Positions 24,700 to 59,543 of a DNA stretch of 64,000 nt are shown here, piece by piece; position 1 is the stretch's first letter, and every line of letters starts with the position of its first letter. Source of the stretch: Maribacter arcticus. Lineage in GTDB: Bacteria; Bacteroidota; Bacteroidia; Flavobacteriales; Flavobacteriaceae. The notes beneath the pieces were generated by a model. The model was not told where the DNA came from, ran no database searches, and saw only the letters and a program-made list of their open reading frames with translations. Where the stretch lies: the NCBI RefSeq assembly GCF_900167935.1, contig NZ_FUYL01000006.1, forward strand, positions 1-64,000. The letters run 5' to 3'. Both the position numbers and the translations under genes were made by a program.

Positions 24700-25512
24700 A
24701 TGGAAGAAAAAGTTTTCAGGAACTATAATGCACCAGATATATCTGTTGCGGTAAAGGAACACTATCGTAAGATGAGAAAAAATCAAACTTTAGATTATGT
24801 ACACCATATGCATAATAAATATTTAAAGTTTGATAAGCCTATGGGGCTTTGGGAGGCCATGCGACATTTAAACAGTCTTATTGATGTTAGTGATCCAGAT
24901 ATTAATTTACCTAACATTCAGCATTTAATACAAAGTGCTGAAGCTATACGCGCAGATGGCAGACCCGATTGGATGCAATTGACAGGTTTGATTCATGATT
25001 TGGGAAAAGTAATGTTTTTAAAAGGTAGTGATGAAGATGGTACGAGCCAGGCTGAACAATGGGGTATGGTTGGCGATGTATTTATAGTAGGTTGTGCATT
25101 GCCAGACACATGTGTATTTCCTGAATTCAATAGTCTTAATAAAGACATGCAGAATGACCAGTATAATACACCAACAGGCATATATGAAAAGGGCTGTGGT
25201 ATAGATAATGTAGATTTAGCTTGGGGCCATGATGAATATTTGTATCAGGTGTTAAACAATCATAAAACAAATACATTACCAGAAGAGGCTATGGTGATGA
25301 TTAGATATCACTCTTTTTATCCATGGCATTCTGGTGGCAGTTATAAAGAACTTTTAAATGATAAAGATGCTGGATATTTAAAATTGATTAAAGATTTTAA
25401 TAAATACGATTTATACACGAAAAGTCAAAAAGTGTATGATTTAGATGAGGTACTGGATTACTATCAGCCAATTGCTGAAAAGTATTTGGGTACTGAACCT
25501 ATTTTTTGGTAA
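24700..25512 (+). CDS. myo-Inositol oxygenase (MIOX)
   Basis: The 270-residue enzyme opens myo-inositol with O2 to give D-glucuronate, using a mixed-valent di-iron site. All six iron ligands known from the mammalian enzyme have counterparts: His75 (QHLIQSAE), His99 and Asp100 (LIHDLGK), His177 (WGHDEY), His204 (RYHSFYPWH) and Asp237 (NKYDLYT). The length is close to that of animal MIOX (~285 residues). It is paired with the SSS transporter upstream. Further uronate genes would be needed for catabolism and are not in the window. Bacterial members are known but scattered. A strong terminator follows. Confidence 0.95.
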   Translation: MEEKVFRNYNAPDISVAVKEHYRKMRKNQTLDYVHHMHNKYLKFDKPMGLWEAMRHLNSLIDVSDPDINLPNIQHLIQSAEAIRADGRPDWMQLTGLIHDLGKVMFLKGSDEDGTSQAEQWGMVGDVFIVGCALPDTCVFPEFNSLNKDMQNDQYNTPTGIYEKGCGIDNVDLAWGHDEYLYQVLNNHKTNTLPEEAMVMIRYHSFYPWHSGGSYKELLNDKDAGYLKLIKDFNKYDLYTKSQKVYDLDEVLDYYQPIAEKYLGTEPIFW

Positions 25513-25585: not shown

Positions 25586-27478
25586 TTATTTTACCATCTC
25601 GTAGCTCCGTTTTATAAACTCGGTCAAATCTTTACCTTTAAGTAAGCCTTTTGATAGTTTGGCTAAGTCAAGTGATTGATTGATTAATCGCTCTTTTTTC
25701 TTAGCTGTTTTTGTATTCAATATTTCACTGACCAACTCATTGTTAGTATTAACAATCAGGTTGTACATTTCTGGCATAGCACCCATGCCAAACATACCGC
25801 CACCGCCACCAGTCTGTTGCATCTCTTTCATACGACGCATAAATTCTGGTTCTGTAATGGTAAATGGTGATGCATCACTATCCATAGCTTCTAATTGTAC
25901 TGTATAGCTGCTTTTTTCACCGATTACTTTTTCCAATTCAGTTTTTAAAGTTTCCTTTTCCTCATCAGACAATTTAGAAATTTGAGTCTCCTCTTTCTGA
26001 ATCAGTTTATCGATATGATCAGCATCAACACGAGCAAAAGAAATATTTTCTTTAGAACTTTCTAATTTTTGTATCAAGTGACCAATAATAGGAGAGTCTA
26101 ATAACAATACTTCGTATCCTTTAGCCTTAGCAGTTTCTATATAACTATGTTGAGCTTCTTTATCAGAAGCATAAAGAATAACTGTTTTACCGTCTTTATC
26201 AGTTTGTGTTGCTTTAATTTTTTCTTGTAATTCTTCAAAAGTGAAATAAGAATCATCTACCGTTGGGTAAAGAGCAAACTTATCTGCTTTTTCAAAGAAC
26301 TTGTCTTCAGAAAGCATTCCGTACTCAATAACGATTTTAATATCGTTCCATTTTGCTTCAAATTCTTCTCTATTGTTTTTAAATAAAGAGTTTAATTTAT
26401 CGGCTACTTTTCTAGTGATATAAGAAGATATTTTCTTTACGGCTCCATCGGCCTGTAAGTACGAACGAGAAACATTCAATGGAATATCTGGAGAATCGAT
26501 AACACCACGTAACATGGTCAAAAATTCAGGTACAATTCCTTCAACATTATCCGTTACAAAAACCTGATTCTGATAAAGCTGAATTCTATCTTTTTGTTGA
26601 TTTAAATCATTAGAAAGTTTTGGAAAGTAAAGTATACCTGTAAGATTAAAAGGGTAGTCTACATTCAAGTGAATATGGAACAAAGGCTCCTCGAACTGCA
26701 TCGGGTAAAGCTCTCTGTAAAAACTTTTATAATCCTCTGATTTTAAATCTGCGGGTTGTTTTGTCCACGCCGGGTTAGGGTTGTTAATAATGTTATCAAC
26801 CTCTACTGTTGGTGCAGGATCTTCTTTTTTGGCACCTTCTGGTTTCGGTAAGGTTTCCGTTTTCATTCCGAATTTAATAGGAATAGGCATAAACTTGTTA
26901 TACTTACTTAACAAGCTTTTAATCTTTCCATCTTCTAAAAACTCGGTAGAATCATCTGCTATATGGAGTATAATCTCTGTACCGCGAGTATCTTTTTGAG
27001 CCTCTTCCATTACAAATTCAGGAGAACCATCGCAAGACCAATGTACCGCGGGCTCATCTTTATAACTTTTAGTTATAATTTCTACTTTATTAGCAACCAT
27101 GAAAGCAGAATAGAAACCTAAACCGAAATGGCCAATAATACCTGAATCTTTGGCAGAATCCTCATATTTGTTCAAGAACTCTTCTGCTCCTGAAAAAGCA
27201 ACTTCATTAATATACTTCTTAACCTCTTCTTCGGTCATACCTAAACCTTGGTCAATAATATGAAGCTTTTTTCCTTCTTTATCTATCTTAACCTCAATTA
27301 AAGGATTACCATAATCAACTTTAGCTTCGCCGATAGTGGTTAAATGTTTCATTTTTAAAGTTGCATCGGTAGCATTTGAAATTAATTCTCGAAGAAAAAT
27401 TTCATGATCGCTGTATAAGAACTTTTTAATAAGTGGAAAAATGTTGTCTACCGACACATTAATTTTACCTGTTGCCAT
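25586..27478 (-). CDS. htpG: Molecular chaperone HtpG (Hsp90)
   Basis: The 630-residue protein has the GHKL ATPase domain in its first ~220 residues: LRELISNATDA (nucleotide-binding Glu/Asn/Asp), DQGLGMT, and GHFGLGFYSAFMVA as the lid. The middle domain includes SRSYLQAD (catalytic Arg region, near residue 345). The C-terminal dimerisation domain follows. A Gly-rich GGGGGMFGMG stretch near residues 556-565 is unusual for bacterial HtpG and may be a clade feature. The gene stands alone, with a small hairpin in the 5' leader (27495-27511). Confidence 0.97.
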   Translation of the reverse strand: MATGKINVSVDNIFPLIKKFLYSDHEIFLRELISNATDATLKMKHLTTIGEAKVDYGNPLIEVKIDKEGKKLHIIDQGLGMTEEEVKKYINEVAFSGAEEFLNKYEDSAKDSGIIGHFGLGFYSAFMVANKVEIITKSYKDEPAVHWSCDGSPEFVMEEAQKDTRGTEIILHIADDSTEFLEDGKIKSLLSKYNKFMPIPIKFGMKTETLPKPEGAKKEDPAPTVEVDNIINNPNPAWTKQPADLKSEDYKSFYRELYPMQFEEPLFHIHLNVDYPFNLTGILYFPKLSNDLNQQKDRIQLYQNQVFVTDNVEGIVPEFLTMLRGVIDSPDIPLNVSRSYLQADGAVKKISSYITRKVADKLNSLFKNNREEFEAKWNDIKIVIEYGMLSEDKFFEKADKFALYPTVDDSYFTFEELQEKIKATQTDKDGKTVILYASDKEAQHSYIETAKAKGYEVLLLDSPIIGHLIQKLESSKENISFARVDADHIDKLIQKEETQISKLSDEEKETLKTELEKVIGEKSSYTVQLEAMDSDASPFTITEPEFMRRMKEMQQTGGGGGMFGMGAMPEMYNLIVNTNNELVSEILNTKTAKKKERLINQSLDLAKLSKGLLKGKDLTEFIKRSYEMVK

Positions 27479-27511: not shown

Positions 27512-27654
27512 TATTGTTGTGTATTATATTTTGGTTATGTGAAGTCAAAAAAAATACCACAATAGAAGATTATGACAAACTGACAGATATAAGAGCATAT
27601 AAAGTTTAACAAATATTTTTGTTTATGAATAATATAAAAAAGTTAAACATAATG

Positions 27655-27662
27655 TATATTTG
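27655..27662 (+). promoter_or_regulatory. Bacteroidota -7 box (TATATTTG) in front of the candidate small RNA
   Basis: This exact TAnnTTTG match ends 2 bases before the left arm of the long stem at 27665. A second match (TATTTTTG, 27614-27621) lies 41 bases further upstream. No convincing -33 element is seen for either. Confidence 0.45.
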
Positions 27663-27664
27663 TA

Positions 27665-27772
27665 ATGTGATTATGAAAAAGTGCTATGAAAAAGAATTTT
27701 ACACATAATCACATGTTGATTATTTATTGGTTAGGTTGTTTAAAACGTGCTATTTTTTAATAGCACGTTTTT
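27665..27772 (+). ncRNA. Candidate small RNA (about 108 nt) with 5' stem and Rho-independent terminator
   Basis: This fills the otherwise gene-free gap 27479-27849. After the -7 box there is an 11-bp perfect stem, ATGTGATTATG (27665-27675) with CATAATCACAT (27704-27714). Next comes the sequence TTTATTGGTTAGGTTGT (27723-27739). A 13-bp perfect hairpin with T5 tail (27742-27772) closes the unit. A 15-codon frame (27713-27760) runs into the terminator, so a tiny peptide is an alternative. The unit could also be a leader of the 27850 gene ended by attenuation. It resembles 59467-59543 just before the terminator. Confidence 0.5.
27742..27772 (+). terminator. Strong Rho-independent terminator of the candidate small RNA
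   Basis: The arms AAAACGTGCTATT and AATAGCACGTTTT form 13 perfect pairs around TTTT, followed by one more T. No annotated gene ends before it on the plus strand: htpG is on the other strand and starts 264 bases to the left. Confidence 0.85.
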
Positions 27773-27849
27773 GCTAAACAAAAGCTAATGTTTCATAAAA
27801 ACTTCTAACTATGAAATCCGCATCGTACCTTTTATAAAAACTATTAAAT

Positions 27850-28503
27850 ATGTCTGCAAAAGCAAAAAAAGTATCGAGAGAATCTATCGTGACAATGTTT
27901 ATGGACTATGTTTTAGAGCATGAAGAAGTGCCAAAAACAGTTTATAAGTTTTGTAAGATAAACAGTATACAAGAATCTGATTTTTATTTATATTTTGGCT
28001 CAATAAGCACTTTGCAAAAAGGTATATGGACTACCTTTTTTGATAATGCTTCTAGTGTTATGATGAAGAATAAAGAGTATCAAGATTTTTCTAATCGCGA
28101 TAAAATGTTGACGTTCTTCTATACCTTTTTTGAAGTACTTACTTTAAATAGAAGTTATGTTTTATTTTCAATGGAACAGTCTGGTAGCACTCTTAAGAAT
28201 ATGGAGCAACTTAAAGGTTTGAGGAAGGGTATAAAAGAGTTTTCAAAAGGTCTAATAGTAGCTGGTAATGAGAATAAAAATATAAAAATCACCAAGCATA
28301 ATCCTCAGTTATTCTCAGAGGGAGCTTGGCTGCAATTTATGTTTTTATTGAATTTTTGGAAGTCAGATGATTCCGCAGGTTTTGAAAAGACAGATGTCGC
28401 TATAGAAAAATCTGTCAATACTATATTCGATGTGTTCGATAATACTCCCTTAGAAAACATTCTCGATTTCGGTAAATTTCTTTATAAGGAAACTTTTGCC
28501 TAA
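27850..28503 (+). CDS. TetR-like transcriptional regulator paired with an ABC1 kinase
   Basis: The 217-residue protein's first ~60 residues fit a TetR-type helix-turn-helix (SRESIVTMFMDYVLEHEEVP, then KINSIQESDFYLYFGSISTL with the aromatic turn and FYLYFG replacing the usual FYxHF). The remainder is all-helical with many Phe and Met, as in TetR ligand-binding domains. It ends 17 bases before an ABC1-family kinase gene on the same strand, and the two are likely one operon. The ligand and targets are unknown. The HTH is somewhat degenerate, so DNA binding is likely but not certain. Confidence 0.78.
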   Translation: MSAKAKKVSRESIVTMFMDYVLEHEEVPKTVYKFCKINSIQESDFYLYFGSISTLQKGIWTTFFDNASSVMMKNKEYQDFSNRDKMLTFFYTFFEVLTLNRSYVLFSMEQSGSTLKNMEQLKGLRKGIKEFSKGLIVAGNENKNIKITKHNPQLFSEGAWLQFMFLLNFWKSDDSAGFEKTDVAIEKSVNTIFDVFDNTPLENILDFGKFLYKETFA

Positions 28504-28520
28504 TCTAACGAACCTACAAT

Positions 28521-29831
28521 TTGAAAACACTTGATAGAATACCCACCGGAAAGATTGAACGAGCTAGTAAGCTTGTAAAAACAGGAGCTAAGATTGGGGG
28601 TAATTATGCTAAATATTTAGGCAAGAAAATTATTAATCCTGATACAACGAAAGACGAACTGAACGAGGATAATGCCACAGACATTTATGACGGATTAAAA
28701 TCTCTCAAGGGTAGTGCTTTAAAAGTAGCGCAGATGTTGAGTATGGAAAAGAATCTGTTGCCAAATGCATATGTAGAAAAATTTTCTTTATCTCAGTTTT
28801 CTGTTCCTCCATTGTCAGCTCCTTTGGTTCGCAAAACTTTCAAAAAATACTTAGATAAATATCCAGAAGAAGTTTTTGATACATTCGAAAAAGATTCTAT
28901 AAATGCAGCAAGTATAGGGCAGGTACATAAGGCAACTAAAGATGGAAAAACATTGGCGGTTAAAATTCAATACCCTGGTGTAGCACAAAGTATTAGTAGT
29001 GATTTGGCCATAGTAAAACCTATAGCGACTCGTATGTTCAACTTACGAGGTAAAGACTCTGAAAAGTATTTTAAAGAGGTAGAGAATAAACTTATAGAGG
29101 AAACTGATTATCTATTAGAAGTTGCTCAGAGTATAGAAATAACAAAGGCTTGTATTGGTATACCGAATATAAAATTTCCTCAGTACTACACAGATTTATC
29201 CAGTGAACGAATTATTACAATGGACTGGATGACAGGCAAGCATCTAAGTGAATTCACTAAAACAAATTTTTCACAGGAAACAGGTGATAAGTTAGGCCAG
29301 GCCTTATGGGATTTTTATATGTTTCAAATTCATGGTTTACGAAAAGTACATGCAGATCCTCATCCAGGTAATTTTTTAGTGAATGATGAGAATGAATTGA
29401 TAGCCATCGATTTTGGTTGCATAAAAGAGGTTCCTGATTCATTTTATGTGCCATATTTTGAACTGGCAAAGACTGAGAGTATTTCCGATGATAAGATTTT
29501 TACCAATAAATTATATGAACTAGAAATTCTGATGGCTTCCGATTCGCCAGAGGAAGTTCTTTTTTTTAAATCACTTTTTTATCAGTTACTGAGTTTGTTC
29601 ACTTCTCCGTTTCATAATGAGGGATTTGATTTTGGTGATGAGGTTTTTTGGAGTAAAATAGCAGATTTAGGAGAGCATTTTGTATCAGATAAGCAGATAA
29701 GAAAGATGAATGGTAACAGGGGTTCAAAGCATTTTCTTTATATGAATCGCACTTTTTTCGGCTTGTATAATTTACTTCATGATTTAAAGGCGAATATTAA
29801 AGTTAACAATTATAAGAAATACCTAGATTAA
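28521..29831 (+). CDS. ABC1/AarF/UbiB-family kinase-like protein
   Basis: The 436-residue protein starts with TTG at 28521. This start is supported because the family N-terminus (TGKIERASKLVKTGAKIGGN) begins immediately after it. Family features in order: the KxGQ-type motif appears as LKVAQMLSME (~residue 67-77, Ala for Gly); the Ala-rich loop is NAASIGQVHKAT; the catalytic lysine is in LAVKIQYPGV; the loop is HADPHPGNF; and the DFG is IDFGCIKEV. Relatives act as atypical kinases or ATPases in quinone and lipid metabolism. The pairing with a TetR-like gene rather than ubiquinone genes suggests a lipid or membrane role, by inference. Confidence 0.9.
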   Translation: MKTLDRIPTGKIERASKLVKTGAKIGGNYAKYLGKKIINPDTTKDELNEDNATDIYDGLKSLKGSALKVAQMLSMEKNLLPNAYVEKFSLSQFSVPPLSAPLVRKTFKKYLDKYPEEVFDTFEKDSINAASIGQVHKATKDGKTLAVKIQYPGVAQSISSDLAIVKPIATRMFNLRGKDSEKYFKEVENKLIEETDYLLEVAQSIEITKACIGIPNIKFPQYYTDLSSERIITMDWMTGKHLSEFTKTNFSQETGDKLGQALWDFYMFQIHGLRKVHADPHPGNFLVNDENELIAIDFGCIKEVPDSFYVPYFELAKTESISDDKIFTNKLYELEILMASDSPEEVLFFKSLFYQLLSLFTSPFHNEGFDFGDEVFWSKIADLGEHFVSDKQIRKMNGNRGSKHFLYMNRTFFGLYNLLHDLKANIKVNNYKKYLD

Positions 29832-59232: not shown

Positions 59233-59323
59233 GCCTATAATTTATATAAAGGTAAAATAATAGGATTTATAAGTAGGGTAAAAGACAAGCCGGTTGTTAT
59301 ATAATAAAGAGCTATGAAAAAGA

Positions 59324-59415
59324 AATTGAATTAGTTCAATTTTGACTTTTGGTTTAAAGTTGGTTTTTGATTTAGTTGAAAGCTCAGGGTGGTTCCTGAG
59401 CTTTCCTTTTTTTTA
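59324..59415 (+). other. Short terminator-ended segment (possible small RNA) in the gene-free stretch 59233-59632
   Basis: The 400-base gap 59233-59632 holds no gene of normal size. Its first hairpin is AAAGCTCAGG (59379-59388) with CCTGAGCTTT (59395-59404), followed by a C pair and T8, a convincing terminator on the plus strand. Upstream is a short Lys-rich frame of six codons and GTTTAAAGTTGG. No exact -7 box is seen. This segment could be a small RNA ending at about 59413, or the terminator of an unseen transcript. Confidence 0.4.
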
Positions 59416-59466
59416 ATTGTAAGGTTGTAGATAGTTTATCGAACTAAGTGTTGAATACAGATTGTT

Positions 59467-59543
59467 ATGAGAAAGATTTTTTTAATGTATTCAGTTTATT
59501 GGTTGGTTGTATAGAAAGCCCGGGTGATTCCCGGGCTTTTTTT
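59467..59543 (+). ncRNA. Candidate small RNA or tiny ORF ending in a terminator (59515-59543)
   Basis: This is the second terminator hairpin in the gap: AAAGCCCGGG (59515-59524) and CCCGGGCTTT (59530-59539) around TGATT, then T4 more. It is preceded by TTTATTGGTTGGTTGT (59495-59510), the same sequence, bar one base, that precedes the terminator at 27742. A 15-codon frame from ATG 59467 to TAG 59514 ends 1 base before the stem. Whether RNA or peptide is the product is not known. Confidence 0.4.

Follow-up and report, generated by a model that had tools for sequence, protein, structure and literature searches.

A conserved small RNA gene beside htpG in Maribacter arcticus, a candidate sponge for a dnaJ-linked RNA of Flavobacteriaceae

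Background

Between the divergent chaperone gene htpG and a TetR-like gene of Maribacter arcticus lie a promoter-like box, a perfect hairpin and an intrinsic terminator, raising the question of whether this interval encodes a free-standing RNA or the leader of the downstream gene, and what such an RNA might do. We analysed this htpG-linked RNA in the window—the whole 64,000-nucleotide (nt) stretch of contig NZ_FUYL01000006.1, forward strand, whose positions serve as coordinates below. It is a conserved, structured, gene-like unit of ~105 nt that is complementary to a second RNA, located directly behind dnaJ. Conservation and structure mark it as almost certainly a real, free-standing small RNA; the two RNAs are somewhat more likely than not to pair as part of their function, and we put the probability that the htpG-linked RNA acts as a sponge for the dnaJ-linked RNA at roughly 0.5. 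The complementarity between loop and partner, the dnaJ-linked RNA and two related units in the window all go beyond the initial annotation of this locus. The result describes two Flavobacteriaceae RNA families that match nothing in Rfam 15 and that keep their place next to htpG and dnaJ, respectively, both chaperone genes, over many genera, and whose complementarity can be checked by simple in vitro binding; if the pairing is true, folding capacity would be linked to protein synthesis at the RNA level.

A free-standing RNA with two covarying hairpins

The unit and the signals preceding it comprise the following features, all on the forward strand:

27604..27625, GTTTAACA ... TTTGTTTA, further boxes of the GTTAAACA kind, kept in the genus (alignment)
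27642..27649, GTTAAACA box, 5' of the -7 box, probably belonging to an operator or the promoter (TTAAAC conservation)
27655..27662, TATATTTG, -7 box of the form TAnnTTTG (sequence)
27665..27714, stem-loop 1, perfect 11 bp, 27665-27675 with 27704-27714 (sequence, covariation)
27683..27694, GCTATGAAAAAG in loop 1, start-codon look-alike and complement of the dnaJ-linked RNA (genus alignment)
27723..27741, TTTATTGGTTAGGTTGTTT, most conserved segment, probably single-stranded (family alignment)
27742..27772, intrinsic terminator (sequence, covariation)

Rereading of the sequence recovered the promoter box, 11-bp stem and terminator described in the initial annotation. The two arms of stem 1, ATGTGATTATG (27665-27675) and CATAATCACAT (27704-27714), are exact reverse complements, and in the terminator AAAACGTGCTATT (27742-27754) pairs perfectly with AATAGCACGTTTT (27759-27771) around a TTTT loop, with a T-run at 27768-27772. 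The minimum free energy of positions 27664-27776 is -30.9 kcal/mol compared with -17.1 ± 3.0 kcal/mol for dinucleotide shuffles, none of which (0/200) was as low (z = -4.6). A simple terminator scan did not list the 27742-27772 hairpin, probably because the T-run pairs with the A-run and was therefore counted as stem. The nearest convincing upstream gene on the same strand ends at 25512, two more forward-strand open reading frames of at least 60 amino acids (ends 25907 and 26999) lie antisense within htpG, and the open reading frame list of the window holds no forward-strand end between 26999 and 27850; the terminator therefore has no likely gene owner on this strand, as had been proposed.

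The unit is widespread in the genus and patchier beyond it. A BLAST search with a 161-base query found it in 35 of 36 Maribacter genomes, the own genome included, at E = 1.3e-15 or better, and the only genome without it (G027) is 64% complete. Mean identity in the 35-sequence genus alignment (A1, whose first row begins one base earlier than the others) was 84% for the RNA and 82% for the promoter, versus 70% for the flank towards htpG and 57% for the one past the terminator, and GCTATGAAAAAG in loop 1 is nearly invariant across the genus. With a covariance model (R1), an E-value limit of 0.001 and strict filters, the unit was recovered from 59 of 249 family genomes. A second model, R2, was preceded by the removal of six wrong-strand terminators and two loci (L090, L094) from 71 model matches; at order level its matches at E = 0.01 came from 17 of 346 genomes, every one of them in the Flavobacteriaceae, and several of these weak matches lacked the build of the RNA when inspected by eye. 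Exact-pattern stretches numbered 107 in named genomes, the 80 listed being named as Flavobacteriaceae or as unplaced Flavobacteriales, Bacteroidia or Bacteroidetes bins, and viral contigs (IMG/VR) contained none. No Rfam 15 family reached its gathering score for the htpG-linked RNA (listed matches at most 17.3 bits against cut-offs of at least 43), in agreement with the earlier remark that it could not be assigned by eye to a known RNA family, and we found no paper describing it in the open-access literature searched.

Both hairpins that the initial annotation had singled out for a covariance check in relatives do covary in the family. We measured covariation on a 63-sequence family alignment (A3) that was fitted to the covariance model, which favours the modelled structure; in it, both partners of a pair have changed at 8/8 modelled pairs of stem 1 (93.6% of cells paired) and at 13/13 of the terminator (97.8% paired). 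Over the whole structure, 93.7% of cells pair, compared with 72.3% in shuffled and at most 50.7% in slid versions, and covariation occurs at 24 of 29 pairs, with a score of 0.576 versus 0.200 (shuffled) and at most 0.160 (slid). The stem arms differ outright among genera, for example GTGATTA/TAATCAC, TTACAGAA/TTCTGTAA and ATAATAGA/TCTATTAT. A candidate middle helix (helix 2, ~27717-27735) is not supported: one of its seven pairs is broken in 34 of the 61 sequences with letters there, and 5/7 vary on one side only. The unit is thus modelled as a hairpin, followed by the single strand TTTATTGGTTAGGTTGTTT and then the terminator; within the single strand, GGTTAGGTTGTT is exact in 56/63 family sequences.

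The upstream signals are conserved along with the RNA. Of 60 family sequences tested, 39 have TAnnTTTG upstream, 35 of them no more than 12 nt from the model start (background 4%), and 22 of 32 genus loci tested have it at one fixed distance. In the excerpted text of PMC9723704, this motif sits at -12 to -5 in Flavobacterium psychrophilum, which would place the transcription start of the htpG-linked RNA near 27667. TTAAAC occurs within 60 nt before the RNA in 54/63 family sequences (background 3.4%). Three TTAAAC/GTTTAA-like boxes precede the RNA promoter at 27604-27649, and these are probably the binding site of a regulator.

An ATG in loop 1 opens a frame of 24 codons in the window, as would be expected if ATGAAAAAG... 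were the real start of a small protein gene whose translation is controlled by the dnaJ-linked RNA. Across relatives, the reading frame is not kept: in the 48 of 63 family sequences usable for the coding test (the other 15 lack one of the two motifs in exact search form), the frame from the ATG to the conserved segment is distributed 20/14/14 over the three phases, i.e., at random, and 14 sequences stop after three codons. This phase pattern rules out the small protein, for which we see next to no chance.

The remaining question is whether the unit belongs to one of its neighbours, which are as follows:

25586..27478, reverse strand, htpG (Hsp90 chaperone), divergent neighbour (NCBIfam HtpG, 656 bits)
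27850..28503, forward strand, TetR-like gene (TetR_C_23), not required beside the RNA (Pfam; gene order elsewhere)
28521..29831, forward strand, ABC1/UbiB-like kinase gene, found with tetR (Pfam; gene order)

The initial annotation had left two readings side by side, a free-standing unit and a leader regulating the TetR-like gene by attenuation, and gene order separates them. In the window the terminator does precede the gene at 27850, and at 29 of 59 family loci htpG is divergent with tetR-abc1 downstream of the RNA, as an attenuator would require. However, when htpG, tetR, abc1 and fabH were placed by tblastn in ~1.5 kb on each side of the 59 family loci, 12 had htpG divergent and fabH downstream with no tetR-abc1 match beside the RNA, and another 12 had the RNA behind abc1; of the rest, four had htpG only, one fabH only and one (L090) none. 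Of the 12 loci where the RNA follows abc1, 10 were read over a longer stretch, and all 10 have a divergent htpG just before tetR. Within the genus, htpG adjoins the unit at all 35 loci and tetR plus abc1 occupy the other side at 33; the two exceptions, L034 and L035, keep the RNA without tetR-abc1 and are followed by a fabH-like start (by eye). Conservation behind the terminator is also poor, at the 57% given above. The RNA therefore stays in the htpG-fabH neighbourhood while tetR-abc1 stands before it, behind it or is missing, and this shifting position makes a tetR leader unlikely as the general nature of the RNA; because a fixed position upstream of tetR is not found, we regard the attenuator as ruled out by gene order and give it only a vanishing chance. 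The free-standing reading, by comparison, is upheld by conservation, covariation, promoter and gene order: the unit has its own promoter and terminator, no coding gene within it, and a covarying structure that is independent of the neighbouring gene.

Two side observations concern these loci. The tetR (TetR_C_23) and ABC1/UbiB-like kinase genes (27850-29831) travel as a pair among genera. At L090, around which htpG, tetR, abc1 and fabH gave no match, a similar model match (L215; both within G067:C1:3584359-3586246) lies 1.8 kb away, and both show conserved hairpins and carry TTTGGTTGTT ahead of the terminator; we read L090 and L215 as unrelated or distant to the RNA, and L090 stays among the 59 loci counted.

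A complementary RNA directly behind dnaJ

When four genomes were searched with the loop 12-mer GCTATGAAAAAG, 27 places were found. Four have the build of the htpG-linked RNA (this RNA in G000 and in G109, the unit at 59293 in the window and one in G120), and four others, one per genome, are the complement, contained in a conserved unit on the opposite strand:

G000:C8 about 412065-412146 and L227:1470-1551, forward strand, dnaJ-linked RNA, directly behind dnaJ

In this second unit, a TAnnTTTG box is followed by a hairpin whose sequence varies, then by a strand containing CTTTTTCATAGCAATTTTTTT and finally by a conserved terminator, CCCA[T/C]CC...GGGTGGGTTTT. We read 34 of its loci, 30 from a family pattern search and four from the 12-mer search; in 33 of them TAnnTTTG lies 38-43 nt before the strand and dnaJ lies 68-181 nt upstream on the same strand, L323 being the exception in both respects. 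A family-wide search for its exact core gave matches in 212 of 249 genomes (186/210 good ones) and, with the pattern reversed as a control, in 0/249. The partner is present in 58 of 59 genomes that carry the htpG-linked element and in 154 of the remaining 190 (counted by eye). Exact copies of the 17-mer TTTTTCATAGCAATTTT turned up in 22 of 41 family genomes drawn; outside the family 3 of 354 genomes had one, against 2 with the reversed control, a control-level count which suggests that the dnaJ-linked RNA is family-specific. In the large genus g127, the exact 17-mer was present in 4/23 genomes drawn, and some genera carry several (3, 7 and 8 in G165, G351 and G475, counted as sequence matches only). 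No Rfam family reached its cut-off in the eight loci scanned or in L227. As a side observation, the core of the dnaJ-linked RNA also has exact matches in five viral contigs (IMG/VR, L378-L382).

The family-consensus loop AUUGCUAUGAAAAAG of the htpG-linked RNA and the invariant strand CUUUUUCAUAGCAAU, which lies between the two hairpins of the dnaJ-linked RNA, are perfect complements. The window loop differs from the consensus by one change (AGUG for AUUG) and is an exact complement of its same-genome partner over 15 nt, 27682-27696. In the own genome, the loop duplex is predicted at -22.6 kcal/mol versus -8.9 ± 2.5 kcal/mol for shuffles, with 0/1000 as low, and the joint fold of the two strands lies 11 kcal/mol below the separate RNAs, at the price of stem 1. 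The loop is thus complementary to the putative seed of another small RNA that its own genome encodes; that the partner strand serves as a seed is suggested by its being both invariant and unstructured.

Pairing with an invariant strand would constrain the loop in such a way that A>G and C>T substitutions are tolerable and others are not. Substitutions were counted in 59 of 63 family rows, after L071, L077, L080 and L088 (below 10/15) had been dropped, whereas L073 and L093 scored 11/15 and stayed in the count although they do not show the loop motif. In the loop core GCTATGAAAA, 17 of 20 transitions keep pairing by G-U (16 A>G and 1 C>T versus 2 G>A and 1 T>C), to be read against the 60:40 ratio of keeping to breaking transitions that site composition alone predicts. 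This pattern is modest support for pairing, because the rows share history and an A-rich loop may simply drift.

The sponge reading and its difficulties

In the mechanism that we propose, a free-standing RNA of ~105 nt, whose transcription would start at its own promoter and stop at its own terminator, would display in its first hairpin loop an imitation of a translation start (consensus AUUGCUAUGAAAAAG). The dnaJ-linked RNA would pair through CUUUUUCAUAGCAAU with mRNA start regions of the form GCU-AUG-AAA, the htpG-linked RNA would bind it in place of these mRNAs, as a sponge or decoy, and the two chaperone loci together would set the strength of start-codon repression. In-cell pairing, the sponge role and the identity of the targets are what we infer here. 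Complementarity alone carries no direction, and the htpG-linked RNA might instead be a target or activator of the dnaJ-linked RNA, for example by guiding its processing; a start-codon look-alike in a non-coding loop is, however, the form expected of a mimic, and we consider this reverse direction improbable.

The start regions of the own genome are consistent with the sponge reading at the strictest threshold. Among 706 crudely predicted genes (ATG open reading frames of at least 100 amino acids in 0.86 of 4.2 Mb), six start regions pair with the partner at -17.5 kcal/mol or better, compared with 1.9 ± 1.6 for shuffled seeds, 5/200 of which reach as many. GCT stands directly before ATG 15 times, versus a mean of 4.3 at 25 other offsets, and the best-pairing starts include exported proteins and dnaJ itself.

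Several results weigh against the sponge reading. The start-region excess shrinks at weaker thresholds, to 24 versus 16.8 at -14 kcal/mol (30/200 shuffled seeds giving as many) and 56 versus 50 at -12 kcal/mol. Genes with GCT-ATG are not richer in export-like N-termini (7/15 compared with 308/706), and the search for a conserved target of the partner yielded one candidate, a FadL-like outer membrane protein that is present in 58/60 genomes and whose pairing site is not conserved: among the 30 best homologous loci, GCT precedes ATG in one, the own. The partner match is itself a partly selected result, since it was found by searching with the loop 12-mer, whose matches exceed the reversed control in the own genome (9 versus 3) but not in G109 (5 versus 7). 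The partner is also far more widespread than the htpG-linked element. In the loop core, all nine transversions break pairing, leaving 17 of 29 total changes that keep it, and over all 15 loop positions transitions divide into 26 keeping versus 9 breaking. The related units of the window pair with the partner not clearly better than shuffles do, 85/500 being as low for the duplex of 59293-59417 and 26/500 for that of 59441-59542. Finally, the loop motif is missing from at least six of the 63 family sequences (L071, L077, L080, L088, L073 and L093), all six retain GGTTAGGTTGTT, and the segment UUUAUUGGUUAGGUUGUU, as conserved as the loop, is left unexplained by a sponge; that GGTTAGGTTGTT outlasts the loop motif indicates that the loop is not the sole, and maybe not the main, function of the RNA.

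These last observations are what an ordinary trans-acting RNA would lead one to expect, one that works through UUUAUUGGUUAGGUUGUUU, either by base-pairing to mRNAs or through a bound protein (e.g., an RRM protein), with the loop match as a side line or as a start-like motif common to the two RNAs. The segment persists in sequences that have lost the loop, the helix proposed for the segment is unsupported, and one of the 706 start regions contains an 11-nt perfect complement to it, 5-15 nt before the ATG (-20.6 kcal/mol). On the other hand, complements of the segment occur at control level: a search of eight genomes for an RNA partner of GGUUAGGUUG (pattern ACAACCTAACCAATAA, at most two mismatches) gave 64 places, the gene itself included, versus 60 for the reversed control, and 30 of these loci, scanned for starts and open frames without comparing their genes singly, showed no evident pattern. 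The 706 genes held no excess of start regions that pair with GGUUAGGUUG as mRNA targets. A trans-acting RNA of this kind also leaves the complementarity of the loop to a conserved RNA unexplained, and as a full account we hold it possible though unlikely. A second activity of the htpG-linked RNA beyond its loop is nevertheless likely, because GGUUAGGUUG outlasts the loop in six family sequences.

Chaperone linkage and comparison with known systems

The sponge reading can be extended to a circuit in which the dnaJ-linked RNA would be a general repressor acting at start codons, perhaps of exported proteins, a family of decoys would titrate it, and synthesis would be tied to the DnaJ and HtpG loci. 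The decoys, with start-codon mimics in hairpin loops, would be one beside htpG and others in tandem elsewhere, and envelope load is perhaps involved. We consider this circuit doubtful, and lowered our estimate for it slightly because GCT-ATG starts are not richer in export-like N-termini. MicA, RybB and MicL are envelope-stress small RNAs of enterobacteria; we know of no sequence relation between them and the chaperone-linked RNAs described here, and the likeness is one of supposed function only, in that a chaperone-linked RNA would lower exported-protein synthesis.

The linkage of both RNAs to chaperone genes may be meaningful, because the sigma-54 promoters of F. psychrophilum include chaperone genes, namely htpG, grpE-dnaJ, dnaK, groESL and clpB according to excerpts of PMC9723704, although the promoters of the two RNAs look to be of the sigma-A kind. 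The same excerpts describe Rfp18 of that species, likewise a free-standing, conserved small RNA of the same family with a strong predicted fold. Their map places Rfp11 at 182,564 and Rfp36 at 840,245, whereas htpG starts at 2,117,454 and the dnaJ operon lies at 1,798,337; if the numbers follow the map, Rfp18 falls between Rfp11 and Rfp36 and so, compared by position only, at a locus different from htpG and dnaJ.

Known sponge RNAs include the chb spacer for ChiX, SroC for GcvB and 3'ETS-leuZ for RyhB, as given in the excerpted text of PMC8383071. The htpG-linked RNA would be like them in pairing with a small RNA and so withholding it from its mRNA targets. Most of those named there are pieces of mRNAs or tRNA precursors from enterobacteria, whereas the htpG-linked RNA, a putative sponge, is a free-standing Flavobacteriaceae gene with a start-codon mimic in a hairpin loop. 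For the dnaJ-linked RNA, the closer comparison is with FopS and GibS of Bacteroides, which base-pair in the start-codon region of SusC-like and other mRNAs and repress them (excerpts of PMC11697453 and PMC7366714); in the literature consulted, it is for Bacteroides RNAs that such start-codon pairing is shown. The dnaJ-linked RNA resembles them in shortness, a main sigma-factor promoter, a single-stranded seed and a terminator, and looks like such an RNA aimed at GCU-AUG-AAA; unlike FopS and GibS as described in those excerpts, it begins with a 5' hairpin. FopS was deposited in Rfam (PMC11697453), and neither of our RNAs matched it in the Rfam scans, a comparison that leaves the seeds aside and in which the presence of the FopS model in Rfam rests on the excerpted PMC11697453.

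Related units in the window and the htpG promoter

The window contains two tandem units with the build of the htpG-linked RNA, i.e., a start-like loop, a G/T-rich strand and a terminator:

59293..59407, forward strand, related unit 1 with exact GCTATGAAAAAG, a G/T-rich stretch and a terminator (R2 E = 0.177; sequence)
59446..59542, forward strand, related unit 2 with stem TGAATACA/TGTATTCA, loop TTGTTATGAGAAAG, TTTATTGGTTGGTTG and a terminator (R2 E = 9.3e-5)

A similar tandem of weak matches occurs at G020:C10:47050-47271, with starts 136 nt apart versus 153 in the window.

On the minus strand, the htpG promoter holds two blocks that are highly conserved through the genus, GGTATTTTTTTTGAC and TGTCAGTTTGTCA, at 27544-27559 and 27573-27585. 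By eye, the first of these, GGTATTTTTTTTGAC, resembles a sigma-54 -24/-12 element, which agrees with the sigma-54 control of htpG reported for F. psychrophilum in the excerpts of PMC9723704.
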